Assembly: GCA_016926405.1 (NCBI GenBank)
Contig: JAFGOQ010000135.1
Coordinates: 1-34,769, forward strand
Length of the DNA stretch: 34,769 nt
Direction: 5' to 3'
DNA from: Bacteroidales bacterium
Lineage (GTDB): Bacteria > Bacteroidota > Bacteroidia > Bacteroidales > UBA6680
Shown here: one piece after another, positions 10,178 to 31,596 of the stretch
Numbering within the stretch: the first letter of the stretch is position 1
Layout: each line of letters opens with the position of its first letter
Position numbers and translations under genes: made by a program
The notes under the pieces: model-generated
Databases searched by the model: none
Told to the model about the DNA's origin: nothing
Seen by the model: only the letters and a program-made list of their open reading frames with translations

Positions 10178-13100
10178 ATGTCAAACGAAACTAATATTCC
10201 CGATTATCTATTTGAAGTTAGTTGGGAAGTATGCAATAAGGTTGGTGGAATTCACACAGTGATTTCGACTAAGGCAACTACTTTGGCTAAGCAATTCAAA
10301 GGAAATCATATTTTTATAGGTCCCGATATTGTGCATCATGCAACTGAGTATCCAGAGTTTATCGAAGACGTTCAGCTTTTTAAATCGTGGCGCGAGAAAT
10401 CGGCGGCAAATGGTTTGCGCTTTAGAGTGGGGCGTTGGAATATTAAAAGCAAACCAATAGCTGTGTTAGTCGATTTCTCTAGTTATATTTCACAAAAAGA
10501 CTTCATACTAAGAGTTTTTTGGGACGAGTATAAACTTGATTCAATATCGGGTTCGTGGGAATATATTGAGCCTGCTCTGTTTGGATATGCAGCAGGTAAG
10601 GTTATAGAGAGTTATACTAGTTATTTTTTGAGTCGCAGTCATAAAATAGTTGCTCATTTTCACGAATGGATGACTGGTTGCGGCCTGCTTTATTTAAAGA
10701 CAAATGCAAAGCAAATAGCAACACTTTTTACTACTCATGCTACTGTTTTGGGGCGGTCTATTGCAGGTAATAATCTTCCTTTGTACGATCAAATAGATAG
10801 TTATAATCCTGAAATGAAGGCCCATGAATACAAGGTGGTTGCCAAGCATTCGTTAGAGAAAGTCTCGGCTATTAATGCTGACTGTTTTACTACTGTTAGT
10901 CAGATTACAGCATCGGAATGTAAGGCTTTTTTGTCGAAAGAGGTTGATATTATTACTCCTAATGGTTTTGACGATACTATTGTTCCCAGTGACGATGAGT
11001 ATAAATTGCAAAAAATTGAGGCTCGTGTGAAATTCCACGAAGTAGCCGAGGCTCTGTTGGGTTACAGTGTCTCTTACGATAGTATATTTTTGGGGACTGG
11101 TGGTAGATATGAGTTTAAAAATAAGGGTATCGATGTACTTCTTAAATCTTTGGCTAAATTAAATAGCAGTAAAACTTTAACTAAAGATATACTTGCTTTT
11201 ATTATGGTGCCTGCGGGGCATCATGGATCTAGAAAAGATGTGTTTCATAATTTAATGGATAATGATAATATTATTCAATTATCCAATAATCATATTTCGC
11301 ATTATTTATTAGATATCGACAACGACCCAATTCTTAATATGGCTAGAAGTTTGGGTCTAAATAATAAAGAACAAGATAGAGTTAAGATGTTTTTTATTCC
11401 TTGTTATCTTGATGGTTACGACAGGATATTTGATAAAACATATTACCAAATGTTGGTAGGTTTAGATATTACTCTTTTCCCTTCATATTACGAACCATGG
11501 GGCTATACACCACTTGAAAGTCTCGCTTTTAAAGTTCCAACATTAACTACTACCCTTGCTGGTTTTGGGTTATGGGTAAAAGATAAGTGCATCCAAGATC
11601 ATCCAGGTATTGAGGTGATTGAACGAACCGATTTTAATGAGGAAGAGGTTGTTAAGTTGATTTCAGAAAAAATTCTTTCGTTCTCGGAGTTTGATAGTAA
11701 TCGTAAACAAGAGATTTGTAACAATGCTTTTGATGTATCAAAAATTGCTCTTTGGGATAATTTAATAAACTACTATTATAATGCATTCGATATTGCTTTA
11801 ACAAAGGTTAGTGGCCGTATTGATAAGCTTACATATCAAGATAGAGAGGAGTTATTATTAAAACCATCTGTTGATATAGTTATTAGCAAACCCAACTGGA
11901 CTAGGCTTTTGGTGAAAAAAAATATTCCAAAGAAATTGGAGGCTCTGGATCTTTTATCGCGAAATTATTGGTGGAGTTGGAATCATGATGCAATAGATTT
12001 GTTTGAGAGTATTGATTCAGAATTATGGAGAGAAATAGGATACAATGCATTTCTGTTTTTGGAGAAAATTTCTTTGCGTCGATATTTAAAATTGTCAAAG
12101 GACGAAGAGTTTTTAAGTAAACTAAAAGCGGTTTTCGATAGGTTTAACAATTATATGAAATTGAAATCGGAGCAAACTGAACCTAAGATTGCTTATTTCT
12201 CGATGGAGTTTGGAATTCATACATCATTAAAAATTTATTCTGGTGGTTTAGGAATTTTAGCAGGCGATTATTTAAAGGAGGCAAGTGATAAAAATATAGA
12301 TATTATTGGTGTAGGATTGCTTTATAGGTTTGGATATTTTATGCAACAAATATCGTCAATTGGTCAACAGATACCTATTTACCAGTCGCAGGACTTCTCG
12401 AAAATTCCTGTTACTGCTGTTAAAGACAAAGATGGTAATATCTTAAAGGTTGTGATAGTTCTTCCAGGTCGAAATGTATATGTTAGAGTTTGGTTAGTTA
12501 ACGTGGGGAGAAATTATCTTTATTTGTTAGATACAGATTTAGACGAAAATATTCCAGAAGATCGTGTTATTACTAGTCAATTGTATGGTGGCGATTCAGA
12601 AAACAGGTTAAAACAAGAGTTAGTTTTGGGTATTGGAGGTATAAGAGCACTCAGAGCTATGGGGATAAATCCCGACATTTATCACTGCAACGAAGGTCAT
12701 GCTGCATTTACAGGTGTCGAACGATTGACTAATTTAATAAAAGAGGATGCTTTGTCATTTGACGAGGCTTTAGAAGTTGTTCGTTCGTCGTCGTTATTTA
12801 CAACGCATACCCCTGTTCCGGCTGGGCACGATACTTTTCAAGAAAGTTTGCTTCGTACCTACATATCTCATTATTCGCATCGCTTAAAAATTAGTTGGGA
12901 TCAGTTTATGAAATTAGGACGATTGAATCCAAATAACCTAAGCGAAAAATTTTCGATGAGCTTTTTGGCTACTAACCTTTCGCAAGAGATGAATGGAGTT
13001 AGTATGCTTCATGGTGATGTTACAAAACAGATGTTTAAAGATATGTGGCCGGGTTATTATCCTAATGAGTTGCATATTGGATATGTAACTAACGGTGTTC

Positions 13101-14419
13101 ATTTTTCCACTTGGGTATCAAAAGAGTGGAAAGAGTTCTGTATGGAAGAGCTTGGTGAAAATTTTCAGAGAAATTCTAATAACTGTGGAAGGCGTATTTT
13201 AAATATTTCCGATAATAAAATTTGGAATGTTAGAAAAATTCAAAAAAATAATCTGATTGCGTATATTAAAAAGCGACTTTTAGAGCCCGAAACTGTAAAA
13301 TTCGATAACCCAAAACAGATTATAGAAATTAGAAATAGCTTAAAAGAGAATGTGTTAACTATTGGTTTTGCTCGTCGGTTTGCTACATATAAAAGGGCTT
13401 ATTTGTTATTTACAGATCTTAAACGACTCAGTAAAATTGTTAACAATCCTAGCAGACCGGTTTTATTTATTTTTGCAGGAAAGGCACATCCTAACGATAC
13501 CGAAGGGCAGACGCTAATAAGGCGAATTGTTGAGCTTTCAAAAACGCCCGAGTTTATAGGAAAAGTAATATTCTTACAGAATTACGATATGGAATTAGCT
13601 AGCCATATGGTTCAGGGTGTCGATGTGTGGTTAAATAATCCTGTGCGGCCTATGGAAGCCTCGGGTACTAGTGGTATGAAGGCCGTAGTTAATGGTGTTT
13701 TGCATTTTAGTGTTCTAGATGGCTGGTGGGTTGAAGGATATAAACCCGATGCTGGTTGGGCTTTGCCTCAAGAACAGACATATAGCGATAACGAATTTCA
13801 AGATGCTCTTGATGTTGAAACAATGTATAGTATAATTGAGAATGATATTATTCCTTCATATTATCAGACAAATAGATCGAATATTCCAGAAAAATGGGTT
13901 GGGTATATTAAAAATTCAATGGCTCAAGTTGCTCCTAATTTTACTTCAAGTAGAATGCTATATGATTACGAAAATAAATTCTACAATAAGCTTTTTGTAA
14001 GGGGGAAACAAATTAAAGAAGACGATTTTAAATTAGCTAAAGATATTGTTGCTTGGAAAAAGTATGTATCGAGTAACTGGAACGATATTGAAATTGTATC
14101 TGTTAATCAAGTAGACACTTCAAAGGAGCCAATTGTTATTGGCGAAAAATATAAAATTGAAGTTGTATTAAAGTTAAATAGAATTGTTAGTAACGATGTG
14201 GGAGTAGAGTTGGTTGTTGCCGAATCTATCGAAGATAATAATGTGGTAGTAAAGTATACTCAAGAGTTTAACAATATAAAATCAGAAGGTAATATTGTTA
14301 CTTATTCTTTAGATATAATCCCTGAAGAACCAGGTGTATTCGATATAGGAATTAGGATCTATGCAAAAAATCCAAATCTTCCGCATCGTCAAGATTTTTG
14401 TTTAGTTAAATGGATATAG
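10178..14419 (+). CDS. GT3 glycogen synthase fused to GT35 alpha-glucan phosphorylase
   Basis: This is a 1413-residue, two-enzyme protein. Residues 1 to about 560 are a eukaryote-like GT3 glycogen synthase. It begins LFEVSWEVCNKVGGIHTV, the donor-binding loop, and carries FPSYYEPWGYTPLES with E-x7-E residues Glu439 and Glu447. Residues about 575-690 match the DUF3417 leader (LLSRNYWWSWNHDAIDLF). From about 690 the GT35 phosphorylase follows, with YFSMEFGIHTSLKIYSGGLG and the pyridoxal phosphate site EASGTSGMKAVVNG, Lys1168. A beta-rich tail of about 110 residues closes the protein. The synthase half adds glucose to alpha-1,4 chains. The phosphorylase half releases glucose-1-phosphate. Both active-site signatures look intact. 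It is the last gene of the glycogen cluster, 121 nt after GH57, with a strong hairpin 36 nt after the stop. Confidence 0.93.
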   Translation: MSNETNIPDYLFEVSWEVCNKVGGIHTVISTKATTLAKQFKGNHIFIGPDIVHHATEYPEFIEDVQLFKSWREKSAANGLRFRVGRWNIKSKPIAVLVDFSSYISQKDFILRVFWDEYKLDSISGSWEYIEPALFGYAAGKVIESYTSYFLSRSHKIVAHFHEWMTGCGLLYLKTNAKQIATLFTTHATVLGRSIAGNNLPLYDQIDSYNPEMKAHEYKVVAKHSLEKVSAINADCFTTVSQITASECKAFLSKEVDIITPNGFDDTIVPSDDEYKLQKIEARVKFHEVAEALLGYSVSYDSIFLGTGGRYEFKNKGIDVLLKSLAKLNSSKTLTKDILAFIMVPAGHHGSRKDVFHNLMDNDNIIQLSNNHISHYLLDIDNDPILNMARSLGLNNKEQDRVKMFFIPCYLDGYDRIFDKTYYQMLVGLDITLFPSYYEPWGYTPLESLAFKVPTLTTTLAGFGLWVKDKCIQDHPGIEVIERTDFNEEEVVKLISEKILSFSEFDSNRKQEICNNAFDVSKIALWDNLINYYYNAFDIALTKVSGRIDKLTYQDREELLLKPSVDIVISKPNWTRLLVKKNIPKKLEALDLLSRNYWWSWNHDAIDLFESIDSELWREIGYNAFLFLEKISLRRYLKLSKDEEFLSKLKAVFDRFNNYMKLKSEQTEPKIAYFSMEFGIHTSLKIYSGGLGILAGDYLKEASDKNIDIIGVGLLYRFGYFMQQISSIGQQIPIYQSQDFSKIPVTAVKDKDGNILKVVIVLPGRNVYVRVWLVNVGRNYLYLLDTDLDENIPEDRVITSQLYGGDSENRLKQELVLGIGGIRALRAMGINPDIYHCNEGHAAFTGVERLTNLIKEDALSFDEALEVVRSSSLFTTHTPVPAGHDTFQESLLRTYISHYSHRLKISWDQFMKLGRLNPNNLSEKFSMSFLATNLSQEMNGVSMLHGDVTKQMFKDMWPGYYPNELHIGYVTNGVHFSTWVSKEWKEFCMEELGENFQRNSNNCGRRILNISDNKIWNVRKIQKNNLIAYIKKRLLEPETVKFDNPKQIIEIRNSLKENVLTIGFARRFATYKRAYLLFTDLKRLSKIVNNPSRPVLFIFAGKAHPNDTEGQTLIRRIVELSKTPEFIGKVIFLQNYDMELASHMVQGVDVWLNNPVRPMEASGTSGMKAVVNGVLHFSVLDGWWVEGYKPDAGWALPQEQTYSDNEFQDALDVETMYSIIENDIIPSYYQTNRSNIPEKWVGYIKNSMAQVAPNFTSSRMLYDYENKFYNKLFVRGKQIKEDDFKLAKDIVAWKKYVSSNWNDIEIVSVNQVDTSKEPIVIGEKYKIEVVLKLNRIVSNDVGVELVVAESIEDNNVVVKYTQEFNNIKSEGNIVTYSLDIIPEEPGVFDIGIRIYAKNPNLPHRQDFCLVKWI

Positions 14420-14454: not shown

Positions 14455-14499
14455 AGAAAGTTTAATTACGAAGTTTTTCGTAATTAAACTTTCTTTTTT
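14455..14499 (+). terminator. Long-stem terminator that contains BlaI-type operator O1
   Basis: A perfect 18-bp stem (14455-14472 with 14477-14494) has the 4-nt loop GTTT and is followed by a T run ending at 14499. It lies 36 nt after the fusion gene stop and should end the glycogen transcript. The loop-proximal 16 bp (14467-14482) is TACGAA-N4-TTCGTA, the same dyad found again over the blaI start site, so the hairpin DNA doubles as a candidate operator. Confidence 0.85.
14467..14482. promoter_or_regulatory. Candidate BlaI-type operator O1
   Basis: TACGAA-GTTT-TTCGTA is a perfect dyad identical in its half-sites to the one at 14523-14538. The centres are 56 bp apart. It lies upstream of the blaI promoter. 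BlaI/MecI repressors bind dyads of this size as dimers. Confidence 0.6.
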
Positions 14500-14511
14500 A
14501 AATTATATCTA

Positions 14512-14519
14512 TATATTTG
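14512..14519 (+). promoter_or_regulatory. -7 promoter element of the blaI-M56 operon
   Basis: TATATTTG is an exact TAnnTTTG match, 38 nt before the blaI start codon. The expected transcription start, near 14525, falls inside operator O2. A TTTC at 14490-14493, 18 nt upstream, may serve as a weak -33 element. Confidence 0.7.
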
Positions 14520-14522
14520 TAT

Positions 14523-14538
14523 TACGAAAGTGTTCGTA
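14523..14538. promoter_or_regulatory. Candidate BlaI-type operator O2 over the transcription start
   Basis: TACGAA-AGTG-TTCGTA matches O1 in both half-sites and differs only in the 4-nt spacer. It begins 3 nt after the -7 element. A repressor bound here would block initiation, which is the usual autoregulation of BlaI-family genes. Confidence 0.65.
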
Positions 14539-14556: not shown

Positions 14557-14943
14557 ATGCAAAAGTACAAACCAACCGAGAGTGAGTTAGAGATTCTGCA
14601 AATATTGTGGTCTGAAGGCGACTGTAATGTTAAGCAGATAAATGATATTCTAAACCAAAAGCGCGAGGTGGGATACACCACAACTTTAAAAACAATGCAA
14701 ATTATGTTCGATAAAGGTTTGCTTTCGCGCGAAAAAGATAAACGAACACATATTTATAAGGCCGAATTACAAAAAGAGGATACCGAAAATATGATGATAA
14801 GCAAACTTATGAATTCGGTATTCGAAGGGTCGGCAGTAAAACTTGTTATGCGTGCCTTGGGTTCGCAAAAAACAAGTACCGAAGAGCTCGAAAAAATTAA
14901 GAGTTTAATTAACGAAATTGAAAAAGAAAACAATAACCAGTAA
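14557..14943 (+). CDS. BlaI/MecI/CopY family transcriptional repressor
   Basis: This 128-residue protein has the winged-helix fold of the BlaI/MecI family. Its N-terminus YKPTESELEILQILWSEGDCNVKQIND is the typical first two helices. VGYTTTLKTMQIMFDKGLLSREKDKRTHIYKAEL covers the recognition helix and wing. The C-terminal third is the helical dimerisation segment that the partner protease cleaves or destabilises in the classic systems. The M56 protease gene begins 9 nt downstream, so the pair is an operon. Two identical dyads bracket its promoter and point to autorepression. The regulated target beyond itself is unknown. Beta-lactam sensing is not implied, since the partner lacks a penicillin-binding domain. 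Confidence 0.93.
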   Translation: MQKYKPTESELEILQILWSEGDCNVKQINDILNQKREVGYTTTLKTMQIMFDKGLLSREKDKRTHIYKAELQKEDTENMMISKLMNSVFEGSAVKLVMRALGSQKTSTEELEKIKSLINEIEKENNNQ

Positions 14944-14952
14944 TTATTGATT

Positions 14953-17622
14953 ATGGAATTTAGCTTTTTAACTGTAGAATTTCAGAAAGCAATAGGATGG
15001 TCGTTGGTACACAGTATTTGGCAAATATTGGTAATAGCTATTGTTCTAAAAACAGTTTTGTTAATCAGTCGTAAAAACACTCCAAGCCTTAAGTTTAATT
15101 TTATGTTGGCTTCATTAGTGTTTTCGCTGGTAAGTTTTGTTATAACTTTTTTTGTTGTATACACACCAGCTGCTGTTAACACCGCAGTTGTGAATACATC
15201 TAAGTTAATAGTTCCAAATATTGTATTTGCAAGTCAACCCCAGTCGGTTTTGGCAACAATTACATCCTTTATCGATGCCCATGTTAACACCATTGTTTTT
15301 ATATGGTTGATTGGAATAATGCTATATATTTTAAAAATAGTGTTTGGCTTTTTGTATGTCGAAAATATTAAACGGAATAGTACACCTATTAATGATAAAA
15401 CTTTCATTCAACTATTCGAAAAGCTTTGCCAGCGTATTGGAATTCTCCGATGCGTTAAAGTTTTAGAGTCGATGACAGTGAAAGTTCCTATGGTTATGGG
15501 GCATTTAAAACCAGTTTTGTTATTACCTGCAGGATTACTTACTGGAATGCCTTACAATCAGATTGAAGCTATTATGGCTCACGAGCTAGCTCATATTTAC
15601 CGTCGCGACTTTTTGGTAAATATTATAGTGGTCGTAATAGAATCGTTGTTTTTCTATCACCCCGCCATTTGGTGGATAACCTCTGCTATGGACGACGAAA
15701 GGGAGAAATGTTGCGACGATATTGCCGTAAAAATTATGGGCAGTAAACTTATCTATGCTAAAGCTCTTACTTCGGTTATTGAGAAAAGTATAGCTAAACC
15801 GCAAATGGCCTTAGCGTTGTCTAGTAATAAACAAAAATTGTATTTACGAATTTCAAGACTTTTAAAAGATAATAATATGAAAAGTAATTTGAGAGAAAAA
15901 ATGATTTTGCCAATAGCACTGTTGTTGGTAATATCGACACTTGCTTTTGCTTCTAACGTTAATAAACCAAACTCTACATTACAAAATGCTTTGCTCGATG
16001 CTTCGGCTAATATTGATAAGCAAGTTGATAAGGAAAAAGAAAAGTATCATTATAGTTTTGGATTAAGAGATTCTACTTCGTTGAAGGGTGCTAATGGTTC
16101 AAGTTCAACAATAACTTATAATAGTGGATTTACTATTTCAAGAACAGGAACCTACAAATGTTCGTCTGATAATATTGTTCATACATCGGAAAGCCAGAAT
16201 TTTGTTTGTATTGAAGGAAACTCAGATGGTCAATCAGTTATGGCTATTCTTGATGGAGATAAGTTGTCTCATTTAAAAATAAATAGTGAGATAATAGATC
16301 AGAAGGATTATTACAAGTATAAGAAAGTGGTTGATAAGTGTGTTAAGAAAGCATTAGCATCTGAAAAGAATCGAATAGTGGTTCCTTATAGGGTAAATAA
16401 TGACGATAGTTTTGGTTCTGATAACAAGGGACTTAATGTTCAGAAAACTCACACTAACTCAGTTGGAGTTACCGATGGTAAAAAATCTTCGTCTAGCTCT
16501 AGTCAGTTGGTTAAGGTAATTGCTAAAGATGATAGTAATATTGTTAGAAAAGTTTCTGAAGATATTGAAGCAAATAATGTAATTTACATTGACGACCAAA
16601 GTGGTTCAATGGTAATTAAGGGAAATAGTTTTAGTGTTGATTCTGTTGATTATTTTTCAAATGCTAGTCAGTATACGTCAATAACTCATAAGATTAACGA
16701 TAAAAATGTGCTTCTTGTTCTTAATGGAAGTTCTGTTGTTAAACTAAAAATAAATGGAAAAGTAATTCCTGAGTCGGATTACCAAAAGTATAAACATTTA
16801 GTTGATGAGTGTATAGACAAGTCGGATGATATAGTTAAAGAGGAAGAAAAAAAATCATCTTTATGTGAATTAAGCACCGACTCCGATGAGAATATCTTTT
16901 ACTCTTCTGCCCATAACGATTCTTACCTTTATTTAAACAAAACAATAAAGGGTGAAAGAGTAAAAGTTGCAATAGATGGAAACACTGTTAAAAAGCTCGA
17001 GGTTAATGGTAAAGTAATTCCCGAATCGGAATATAAAAACCATAAAAAGCTTATTAAAGAGTGTATTGAGTTGTCGGTTATGTCGGAGAAAGAAATTCGT
17101 GATGTTGAGAAAGATTTGATTAATGTAAAAGAGGATTTGTCAAATACCGAGATCGATTTAAAGGAAATTGAGGAAGATATTGAAGAGGCTCAAATATCGT
17201 TAAATAAAGATTTAAAAAATATTAAACTAAATCTTAATATAACTAGCGAGAAAGATCTTAAAAAACTTCGTAAAGAACTAGAGCGTGTTAAGAATATTAA
17301 GGTTATGAGTTCGGGAAATTCTACCAACGAAGAAAATATAGATATTGATGTTGAAGCAATAATGAGTTCGGTAGAATTTGCAATGAAAAATCTTGATATC
17401 GATAAAATTGTTGGTGATGTTACTTTGTCTCTTGATAATGTTAGCGAGATTAAAAGCAATATTGATTTTAACGAAATTAGTTTGAGTGTAAAAAAAGCTG
17501 GCAAAGAGATTAATACCGATAAAATTATTGTTCAAGTAAATAACCGTAACAATAAAATTAAGGCTATAGATATTAAAGAACTAGAAAAAGATATCGACAA
17601 AAAAGCCAAAAAGAAAAAGTAG
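14953..17622 (+). CDS. M56 (BlaR1-type) membrane metalloprotease with three-module sensor region
   Basis: This 889-residue protein has membrane spans near residues 10-34, 50-74, 108-132 and around 315-335, as in BlaR1 and MecR1. The zinc site HELAH is at residues 210-214 in IMAHELAHIYRRDF, followed by DDEREKCCDDIAV. The protease should inactivate the partner BlaI repressor on signal. In place of a penicillin-binding domain, residues about 340-710 hold three diverged modules. Each ends in a similar segment (LKINSEIIDQKDYYKYKK, LKINGKVIPESDYQKYKH, LEVNGKVIPESEYKNHKK). A charged coiled-coil stretch (about 710-800) and a basic KKAKKKK end follow. The signal is unknown. I prefer ATG 14953 to the TTG two codons upstream. 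A terminator lies 30 nt after the stop. Confidence 0.9.
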   Translation: MEFSFLTVEFQKAIGWSLVHSIWQILVIAIVLKTVLLISRKNTPSLKFNFMLASLVFSLVSFVITFFVVYTPAAVNTAVVNTSKLIVPNIVFASQPQSVLATITSFIDAHVNTIVFIWLIGIMLYILKIVFGFLYVENIKRNSTPINDKTFIQLFEKLCQRIGILRCVKVLESMTVKVPMVMGHLKPVLLLPAGLLTGMPYNQIEAIMAHELAHIYRRDFLVNIIVVVIESLFFYHPAIWWITSAMDDEREKCCDDIAVKIMGSKLIYAKALTSVIEKSIAKPQMALALSSNKQKLYLRISRLLKDNNMKSNLREKMILPIALLLVISTLAFASNVNKPNSTLQNALLDASANIDKQVDKEKEKYHYSFGLRDSTSLKGANGSSSTITYNSGFTISRTGTYKCSSDNIVHTSESQNFVCIEGNSDGQSVMAILDGDKLSHLKINSEIIDQKDYYKYKKVVDKCVKKALASEKNRIVVPYRVNNDDSFGSDNKGLNVQKTHTNSVGVTDGKKSSSSSSQLVKVIAKDDSNIVRKVSEDIEANNVIYIDDQSGSMVIKGNSFSVDSVDYFSNASQYTSITHKINDKNVLLVLNGSSVVKLKINGKVIPESDYQKYKHLVDECIDKSDDIVKEEEKKSSLCELSTDSDENIFYSSAHNDSYLYLNKTIKGERVKVAIDGNTVKKLEVNGKVIPESEYKNHKKLIKECIELSVMSEKEIRDVEKDLINVKEDLSNTEIDLKEIEEDIEEAQISLNKDLKNIKLNLNITSEKDLKKLRKELERVKNIKVMSSGNSTNEENIDIDVEAIMSSVEFAMKNLDIDKIVGDVTLSLDNVSEIKSNIDFNEISLSVKKAGKEINTDKIIVQVNNRNNKIKAIDIKELEKDIDKKAKKKK

Positions 17623-29193: not shown

Positions 29194-31365
29194 ATGAGAA
29201 AAATTTCTTTGTTTTTAGCCATTTGCTTCTTTACAATAGCTGCATTTGGTCAGGAATATAAAAAGATTACTCTAGAAGATGAGCACGTTAAAGGAACTTT
29301 TAGAGCTAAATCTGTTTATGGTGTAGAGTCCATGAATAACGGTGTTAATTACACAACATCGTCGGGTAGTAATACTATAACAATGTTTGAGTATGCTACA
29401 GGTGAAAAAGTTGCCGATGTTTTAACTAAAGATGATTTGTTGAGCGCTAATATTAAATCGTTTGCAGATTACTCTTTTTCCGACGACGAGTCGAAAGTTC
29501 TTCTTACTACAAACAAGAATTATATCTATCGTCACTCGTTTACTGCCGATTATTATATTTTCGATAGAAAAACTAAAACATTTACTGCAGTTAGTAAAAA
29601 TGGTGCTCAGCAAAGTGCTACTTTTTCGCCAGATGGTTCAAAAGTGGCTTTTGTTCGCGATAACAATCTATTTATTACTGATATTACTTCATCTACCGAA
29701 GAGCAAATTACTACCGATGGTAAGTTTAATTACATTATAAATGGTGCTTGCGACTGGGTTTACGAAGAGGAGTTTGGATTTGCTGTTGCCTTTAAGTGGT
29801 CGCCCGATGGTAAATATTTGGCTTATTATAAGTTTGATGAAAGCCGCGTTAAAGAATTCGATATGATGGAGTATAAAAACAAACTCTATCCACAACCTTA
29901 TACTTATAAATATCCTAAAGCGGGCGAGACTAATTCTATTGTCTCAATTCATACATTTAATCTTGCTACAAAAGAAACAAAAACAATGAATGTAGGGGAG
30001 GAGACTAATCAGTATATCTCGCGTATTAAGTGGACACAGCAATCAGATAAGCTTAGTATGATTCGTCAGAATAGATTGCAAAACAAACTAGAGATTATGG
30101 TTGCCGATGCTGCTTCTGGTGAATCTAAGGTTATTTATACAGAGACAAACAGTCGCTATATTGGAGAGGTTAACGATAATTATGTTACTTTTTTGCCTGG
30201 TAACAACCTTTTTATTATCACTGCTGAGTTAGATGGATGGCGTCATATTCATTTGTTCAATATGAAAGGCGAAAAAGTTCGTCAGTTAACAAAAGGGAAT
30301 TGGGATGTAACTAAGTTTTTAGGTTACGATGCAAAGTCAAAGCGACTGTTTTACGAATGTGCTCGTACTTCGCCAATGACTCGTGATGTTTATTCTGTAG
30401 GTATTAATGGTAAAAAAGAGATTAAACTAACACAAAAGAGAGGTTATAACAGGGTTGCTTTTAGTAAAGGTTTTAAATATTTTATAAACTTCCATTCAAC
30501 ATTAAATACTCCAAACTATGTTACCATGCATAATGCAAAGGGTAAACAGTTACGAGTTTTAGAAGATAATAAAGAGCTTGTTGAGAAGTTAAAAACATAC
30601 CCACAGCTTAATCGTGAGTTTTTTACTTTCACTACTTCCGAAGGTGTTAGTCTTAATGGTTGGATGTTAAAGCCTCTTAATTTCGATGCTAATAAAAAGT
30701 ATCCTGTTTTGATGACTCAATATAGTGGGCCAAATTCGCAACAAGTTCTAGATAGGTTTGATTATAGCTGGTATCACTACTTGGCGCAAGAAGGTTATAT
30801 GGTTGTTTGTGTCGACCCACGCGGAACAGGTGCACGTGGCGAGGATTTTAGAAAGGTTACTTACGGACAGCTTGGTAAATACGAAACTATCGATCAGATT
30901 GAAGCTGCTAAATATTTAGGTTCGCTTGATTATGTTGATGCCAGCAGAATAGGTATATGGGGATGGAGTTTCGGTGGATTTATGTCGTCCTCTTGTTTAT
31001 TTAAGGGCGATGGTGTTTTTAAAATGGCTGTTGCTGTTGCTCCTGTTATTAACTGGCGTTATTACGACAGTGTGTATACCGAGCGTTTTATGGGCTTACC
31101 TCAAGATAATGCCTCGGGTTACGACGATAATTCGCCAATTAATTTGGTTGATAACTGGACAAAAGGAAAGTATCTATTAATTCATGGTATTGCCGACGAT
31201 AATGTTCATGTTCAAAACTCAATGGAGTTGATTACAAAACTTATTAACAGTAATAAACAATTCGAAATGCAGATGTATCCCGATAAAAACCACTTTATTA
31301 ATGGTGGAAAGACTCGTTTGCATTTGTATACTCGAATGACAGATTTTGTAAAAAGCAATCTTTAA
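29194..31365 (+). CDS. S9B dipeptidyl peptidase IV-like protease
   Basis: This 723-residue exported serine peptidase is like DPP-IV, which removes X-Pro or X-Ala dipeptides from peptide N-termini. A signal peptide (1-19, ends FGQ) leads to the periplasm. The N-terminal beta-propeller includes SDDESKVLLTTNKNYIYRHS. The DWVYEEEFG motif carries the acidic pair Glu192 and Glu193 that holds the substrate amino group in DPP-IV. The alpha/beta-hydrolase domain has the nucleophile Ser592 in GWSFGGFMSS, Asp668 in HGIADDNVHVQ and His700 in DKNHFI. All key residues are present and length is normal. It is probably a single gene; like the M3 lipoprotein, it suits peptide feeding. Confidence 0.95.
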   Translation: MRKISLFLAICFFTIAAFGQEYKKITLEDEHVKGTFRAKSVYGVESMNNGVNYTTSSGSNTITMFEYATGEKVADVLTKDDLLSANIKSFADYSFSDDESKVLLTTNKNYIYRHSFTADYYIFDRKTKTFTAVSKNGAQQSATFSPDGSKVAFVRDNNLFITDITSSTEEQITTDGKFNYIINGACDWVYEEEFGFAVAFKWSPDGKYLAYYKFDESRVKEFDMMEYKNKLYPQPYTYKYPKAGETNSIVSIHTFNLATKETKTMNVGEETNQYISRIKWTQQSDKLSMIRQNRLQNKLEIMVADAASGESKVIYTETNSRYIGEVNDNYVTFLPGNNLFIITAELDGWRHIHLFNMKGEKVRQLTKGNWDVTKFLGYDAKSKRLFYECARTSPMTRDVYSVGINGKKEIKLTQKRGYNRVAFSKGFKYFINFHSTLNTPNYVTMHNAKGKQLRVLEDNKELVEKLKTYPQLNREFFTFTTSEGVSLNGWMLKPLNFDANKKYPVLMTQYSGPNSQQVLDRFDYSWYHYLAQEGYMVVCVDPRGTGARGEDFRKVTYGQLGKYETIDQIEAAKYLGSLDYVDASRIGIWGWSFGGFMSSSCLFKGDGVFKMAVAVAPVINWRYYDSVYTERFMGLPQDNASGYDDNSPINLVDNWTKGKYLLIHGIADDNVHVQNSMELITKLINSNKQFEMQMYPDKNHFINGGKTRLHLYTRMTDFVKSNL

Positions 31366-31370
31366 AATAT

Positions 31371-31423
31371 TAAGAAGTGTGATATATGATTTTCTTTTGG
31401 TTCTGATTATATCACACTTCTTA
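31371..31423. repeat. 16-bp inverted repeat downstream of the DPP-IV gene
   Basis: A perfect 16-bp stem (31371-31386 with 31408-31423) has a 21-nt loop, starting 6 nt after the stop codon. No T run follows on the plus strand, so it is not a textbook terminator, but it may stabilise the transcript end or stop it weakly. Confidence 0.55.
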
Positions 31424-31447
31424 AATCTTATATTTAATACATTTTGT

Positions 31448-31550: not shown

Positions 31551-31553
31551 CAA

Positions 31554-31596
31554 ACAAACGTAGCTTAGGGATTTATCCCTGAGCTACGTTTGTTTT
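31554..31596 (+). terminator. Terminator of tRNA-Leu
   Basis: A 12-bp outer stem ACAAACGTAGCT/AGCTACGTTTGT (31554-31565 with 31582-31593) continues through a T-G pair into AGGG/CCCT. A short T run follows. It starts 3 nt after the tRNA end. Confidence 0.92.

Follow-up and report, generated by a model that had tools for sequence, protein, structure and literature searches.

The intergenic region in front of blaI in this Bacteroidales genome raises the question of whether one DNA segment can act both as the terminator of the gene before it and as the repressor site of the gene after it. The region runs from an upstream stop codon, which ends at position 14419, to the blaI start at 14557, and lies within the window, by which we mean the whole 34,769-nucleotide stretch of DNA that was analyzed. 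We consider it highly probable, on comparative sequence evidence, that two dyads in this region are operators of the downstream BlaI, and that a lineage-specific terminator over the outer one ends the glycogen transcript and insulates the blaI-M56 genes. The features concerned are the following.

10178-14419, plus strand: gene for a glycogen synthase (GT3-like)-DUF3417-alpha-glucan phosphorylase fusion of 1413 aa (PF05693, PF11897, PF00343; TIGR02094).
14455-14499, plus strand: intrinsic-terminator-like hairpin with a perfect 18-bp stem (14455-14494), loop GTTT and a T-tract from 14495; absent in the sister genomes.
14467-14482, no strand: O1 (TACGAAGTTTTTCGTA), outer predicted BlaI operator, at slot -45 from the -7 element and in the loop-proximal part of the hairpin; the slot is conserved in orthologous promoters.
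14490-14493, plus strand: TTTC at a -33-like position, also within the 3' arm of the hairpin.
14496-14511, no strand: vacant middle operator slot, at -16 from the -7 element in relatives; the dyad is absent here.
14512-14519, plus strand: predicted -7 element TATATTTG, of the Bacteroidota TAnnTTTG type and kept in the sister genomes.
14523-14538, no strand: O2 (TACGAAAGTGTTCGTA), inner predicted BlaI operator, filling the third slot (+11 relative to the -7 element), where transcription is expected to start.
14557-14943, plus strand: gene for a BlaI-type repressor of 128 aa (PF03965, E = 1.2e-25), recognition helix GYTTTLKTMQIM.
14953-17622, plus strand: gene for an M56 (BlaR1-type) peptidase of 889 aa (PF05569, E = 2.7e-32), next in the operon after blaI.

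The geometry described in the first-pass annotation proved accurate in each particular: the same TACGAA-N4-TTCGTA dyad, with identical 6-bp arms, occurs twice with starts 56 bp apart, O1 is the loop-proximal part of the perfect 18-bp stem, and O2 begins 3 nt (TAT) past the -7 element. The genome (2.9 Mb in 233 contigs, 92% complete, and as a MAG possibly incomplete) contains just three exact copies of the dyad, two of them at this locus, and the pair is therefore beyond what chance would place here. The third copy lies in the fusA reading frame, a position that rules it out as a member of the regulon.

The protein encoded downstream belongs to the BlaI/MecI (Penicillinase_R) family, with PF03965 scoring 90.5 bits against a cut-off of 22.6 over residues 7-119, and its nearest solved structures by sequence are those of Staphylococcus aureus MecI and BlaI (1sd6, 1okr, 1sd4). 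The adjoining PF05569 gene supplies the linked M56 (BlaR1-type) peptidase expected in this family, and M56 lies immediately 3' of blaI in at least 37 of 45 orthologous loci under a strict test. No penicillin-binding sensor domain, as found on the receptors of beta-lactam-inducible bla and mec systems, was detected by Pfam on the 889-aa protein, which gave M56/M48 matches only; the match to blaR1_generic (NF000326) scored far under the cut-off for that model and was limited to the peptidase part. The C-terminal half of the protein contains three copies of a K(I/V)NGKVIPES-Y-KYKxLVxxC-like motif.

To find out how far the dyads extend, we gathered BlaI orthologues on protein score alone. At the order level, orthologues separated cleanly from paralogues, with 15 genomes (this one included) at E < 1e-33 and the next at 5e-14, and dyads occurred upstream of blaI in all 15. 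A BlaI orthologue (E < 1e-30) was present in 43 of the 395 class genomes sampled. The combined survey comprised 45 promoters (the 15 order loci, a Melioribacter-labelled MAG, which has one dyad near its blaI, and 29 further class loci), with a dyad called when at least 10 of 12 arm bases agreed. Palindromic operator-like dyads 5' of the repressor's own gene, characteristic of the BlaI/MecI family, were present in 45/45, and 41 promoters had two or three in this first survey. The core of 100 such sites reads TACGA-N6-TCGTA, which differs from the canonical TACA/TGTA-type operator of beta-lactam-inducible bla/mec systems. The search of related genomes that had been proposed thus shows the dyads to be kept across order and class, and because nearly all relatives across the class keep them, they are very probably BlaI's own sites. 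Genome-wide counts and conservation together rule out a chance origin.

The motif does not extend to every member of the wider group: in four more orthologues, whose recognition helix begins differently (VQYTS, VNYAT), no exact dyad lies within 220 bp. VQYTS replaces VGYTT in G521:C2 (L104), G454:C1 (L116) and G375:C141 (L118), and these three loci share upstream TTTCGTACGAAA-N3-TTTC-(C/A)TACC-like sequences, which are possibly a third operator type. Nor does one operator serve every BlaI protein: 15 paralogous genes with a different, PAYNTVSTIVRIL-type helix had no TACGAA-N4-TTCGTA dyad upstream, and often had AACTA-N6-TAGTT-like dyads instead.

Scanning the 395 class genomes for a pair of exact dyads separated by 10-40 bp gave matches in 12 genomes, and the reversed control pattern gave none. 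Most matches adjoin blaI or M56, mainly directly 5' of the blaI orthologue. Where the gene order differs, the dyads follow these genes: in G149 and G448 an M56 gene apart from blaI has its own three-site array, and in G473 the array is followed by a small gene and then by blaI and M56. A single-dyad search of 25 genomes found few copies beyond the blaI-M56 locus, the exception being G511, which has a triple array with neither blaI nor M56 nearby. Its extra arrays lie away from blaI-M56: one (G511:C1:470224-470295, L058) stands 330 bp 5' of the gene for a LytTR response regulator, and another, a pair of dyads (G511:C1:4800131-4800170, L095), precedes the gene for an outer-membrane-type protein of 824 aa. 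The regulon of G511 is possibly wider than blaI-M56.

These distributions bear on the possibility that the dyads belong to another regulator acting at the same promoters. BlaI binding to the dyads is deduced from sequence, which leaves some room for such a regulator; however, the array tracks blaI or M56 through differing gene neighborhoods, and in four of four cases a change in the BlaI helix goes with a change in the operator. We therefore regard another regulator as extremely unlikely. The four cases are second blaI-M56 copies, in G149:C60 (L108), G448:C64 (L109), G469:C1 (L102) and G232:C87 (L103). Their recognition helices contain QMQRM or QIQRM, where the others have MQIM, and the dyads 5' of them read TACGAC-N4-GTCGTA or nearly so (with a spacing of 30 bp in G149 and G448). 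In each, I49 to R accompanies A to C in each half-site. This covariation implies that BlaI itself would read the dyad, although the four variants may share one ancestry, so that it may represent a single event. It suggests that specificity has switched naturally between the copies of a single genome, in that second copies with MQRM/IQRM would use the TACGAC-N4-GTCGTA-like operators, and further that I49 to R alone may switch the base at position 6 of the half-site from A to C. A gap-free alignment pairs I49 with the Arg of the MecI segment TLITRLYKKG. Conserved orthologous promoters and this covariation together lend strong support to the earlier proposal that the dyads are BlaI-type operators, as far as sequence can indicate.

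The arrangement of the sites relative to the promoter accounts for the spacing in the window. The -7 consensus in Bacteroidota is TAnnTTTG (PMC7366714), and operator starts measured from it cluster at -47 to -44, -18 to -14 and +8 to +13; for a few promoters -7 was assigned automatically in error, to an unrelated match or to the -33 region. Spacings between neighboring sites also cluster, at 24-28, 29-31 and 55-56 bp. A full array thus has the order operator, -33 TTTG, operator, -7, operator, with one slot 5' of the -33 element, one between -33 and -7, and one at the start site. Many lineages keep two of the three slots; the window keeps the outer pair (-45 and +11), and its 56-bp spacing arises because these two are filled and the middle one is vacant. 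The first-pass annotation also suggested that BlaI dimers on O1 and O2 may interact; the 40 bp between the two cores include this empty slot, the site of the third dyad in relatives.

The hairpin over O1 has a much narrower distribution. It begins 36 nt past the stop codon of the co-directional glycogen gene and has the form of an intrinsic terminator, a stable stem-loop followed after the stem by the T-rich tail TTTTTAAATT; termination itself is predicted. The stem is A+T-rich, with four G-C pairs, and the RNA fold of -20.3 kcal/mol (z = -7.8) was equaled in 0 of 200 shuffles. Hairpins after two downstream genes in the window are comparable, at -18.1 and -21.1 kcal/mol. Inverted repeats also follow the ORF at 29194-31365, one at 31370-31424 (17 bp, perfect, 21-nt gap) and one at 31552-31595 (21 nt, 95%, 2-nt gap). 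Across the 100 sites, outward pairing past the 16-bp dyad was 0 bp in 79, 1-5 bp in 20, and 12 bp at O1 itself. When the flanks were shuffled, 12 bp of pairing was reached in 207 of 20,000 trials, close to the 1 in 97 at which O1 would simply be dealt back its own right flank, and this frequency therefore carries no weight as a probability. No comparable hairpin lay over an operator at other promoters with co-directional neighbors, and G334 has a separate terminator-like hairpin 5' of its array. Pairing of 0-5 bp past the dyad at the other promoters rules out a conserved terminator-operator overlap.

Comparison with the two same-genus sisters, G001 and G002, marks the arrangement as lineage-specific. 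The gene upstream of blaI is divergent in both, and the C-terminal 433 aa of the glycogen fusion have no match in either genome, which rules out a conserved link to glycogen genes for these two. Alignment shows that they share the right arm (ATTAAACTTT) with the window and not the left arm, and that they have TTTG where the window has TTTC; their folds reach -5.2 and -5.6 kcal/mol, and the hairpin is absent. Since the sisters have a divergent gene and no hairpin, the stem and T-tract co-occur with a co-directional neighbor here alone. The proposal that one segment would serve as both terminator and repressor site is accordingly confined to this locus, where the overlap of a predicted operator with a terminator-like hairpin is real, and does not extend to the two sisters or to the other operators (1 of 100).

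The long palindrome could instead be a mutational by-product with no selected role, for example of template-switch correction of an imperfect inverted repeat. A right arm common with the sisters and a left arm rewritten to match it are what such an event would leave. However, the T-tract directly adjoins the stem, the co-directional neighbor occurs here only, and the fold is as strong as the other gene-end hairpins of the window; we hold a by-product to be unlikely. A further proposal, made in the first-pass annotation, was that BlaI occupancy of O1 alters glycogen termination, and hence read-through into blaI or glycogen expression. On such a view, BlaI/M56 signaling would feed back on the glycogen transcript. 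The operator does physically overlap the terminator; however, this coupling finds no comparative support, because the overlap occurs at 1 of 100 operators and neither the hairpin nor the glycogen gene was found in the sisters. Little would be gained by it either, as hairpin and roadblock probably act in the same direction. We judge such a switch very improbable.

Our preferred reading, a set of BlaI operators with a lineage-specific terminator added over the outer one, would work as follows. BlaI dimers on the array around the promoter would block RNA polymerase, and the blaI-M56 operon would stay under its own repression until BlaI is inactivated by the M56 peptidase, as the analogy with BlaR1 suggests. 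Around the outer operator, the flanking sequences of this lineage appear to have turned complementary, with the -33 TTTG becoming TTTC, and the co-directional glycogen RNA can therefore fold as an intrinsic terminator. Most likely, glycogen transcripts stop at the hairpin and blaI is thereby shielded from read-through, an effect in the same direction as that of a BlaI roadblock at O1. The price may be a -33 element (TTTC) of reduced strength.

Operators of Staphylococcus aureus MecI and BlaI read TACA-N2-TGTA, and the recognition helix of these proteins differs from that of the window BlaI (SPKTIRTLITRLYKKG versus GYTTTLKTMQIMFDKG). As a kind, a repressor of this family with a linked peptidase and autoregulation through several dyads is already known (PMC3305447, PMC8457756). 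The bla system of Bacillus licheniformis, with BlaI, BlaR1 and operators OP1-OP3 (PMC3305447), likewise combines a BlaI-family repressor, a linked M56-type receptor and three operators on its own operon. However, its operator probe contains TACATATGTA (PMC3305447) where the window has TACGAA-N4-TTCGTA, and the window operon has no beta-lactamase, an M56 protein with no detected penicillin-binding domain, and operators that interleave a TAnnTTTG promoter. In Clostridium thermocellum, DAP-seq of BlaI_0696 and BlaI_1845 revealed small, mostly autoregulatory regulons (PMC8457756), and dyad pairs similarly lie 5' of blaI-blaR1 operons, although the motif there consists of GTCTAT/GACTAT inverted repeats, from which the window differs in half-site and spacing. 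In the literature searched, coverage of which is incomplete, TACGAA-N4-TTCGTA is unreported in a BlaI context, and neither the three-slot layout on a Bacteroidota promoter nor the helix-operator switch was found.

The likely operator code TACGAA-N4-TTCGTA and the three-slot layout would thus apply to a BlaI-M56 subfamily present in 43 of the 395 class genomes. Its regulon is tight, often a single locus, which raises the question of what signal the M56 receptor senses where no beta-lactamase takes part. The terminator overlap, for its part, suggests that the symmetry of an operator can find a second use in an RNA hairpin.
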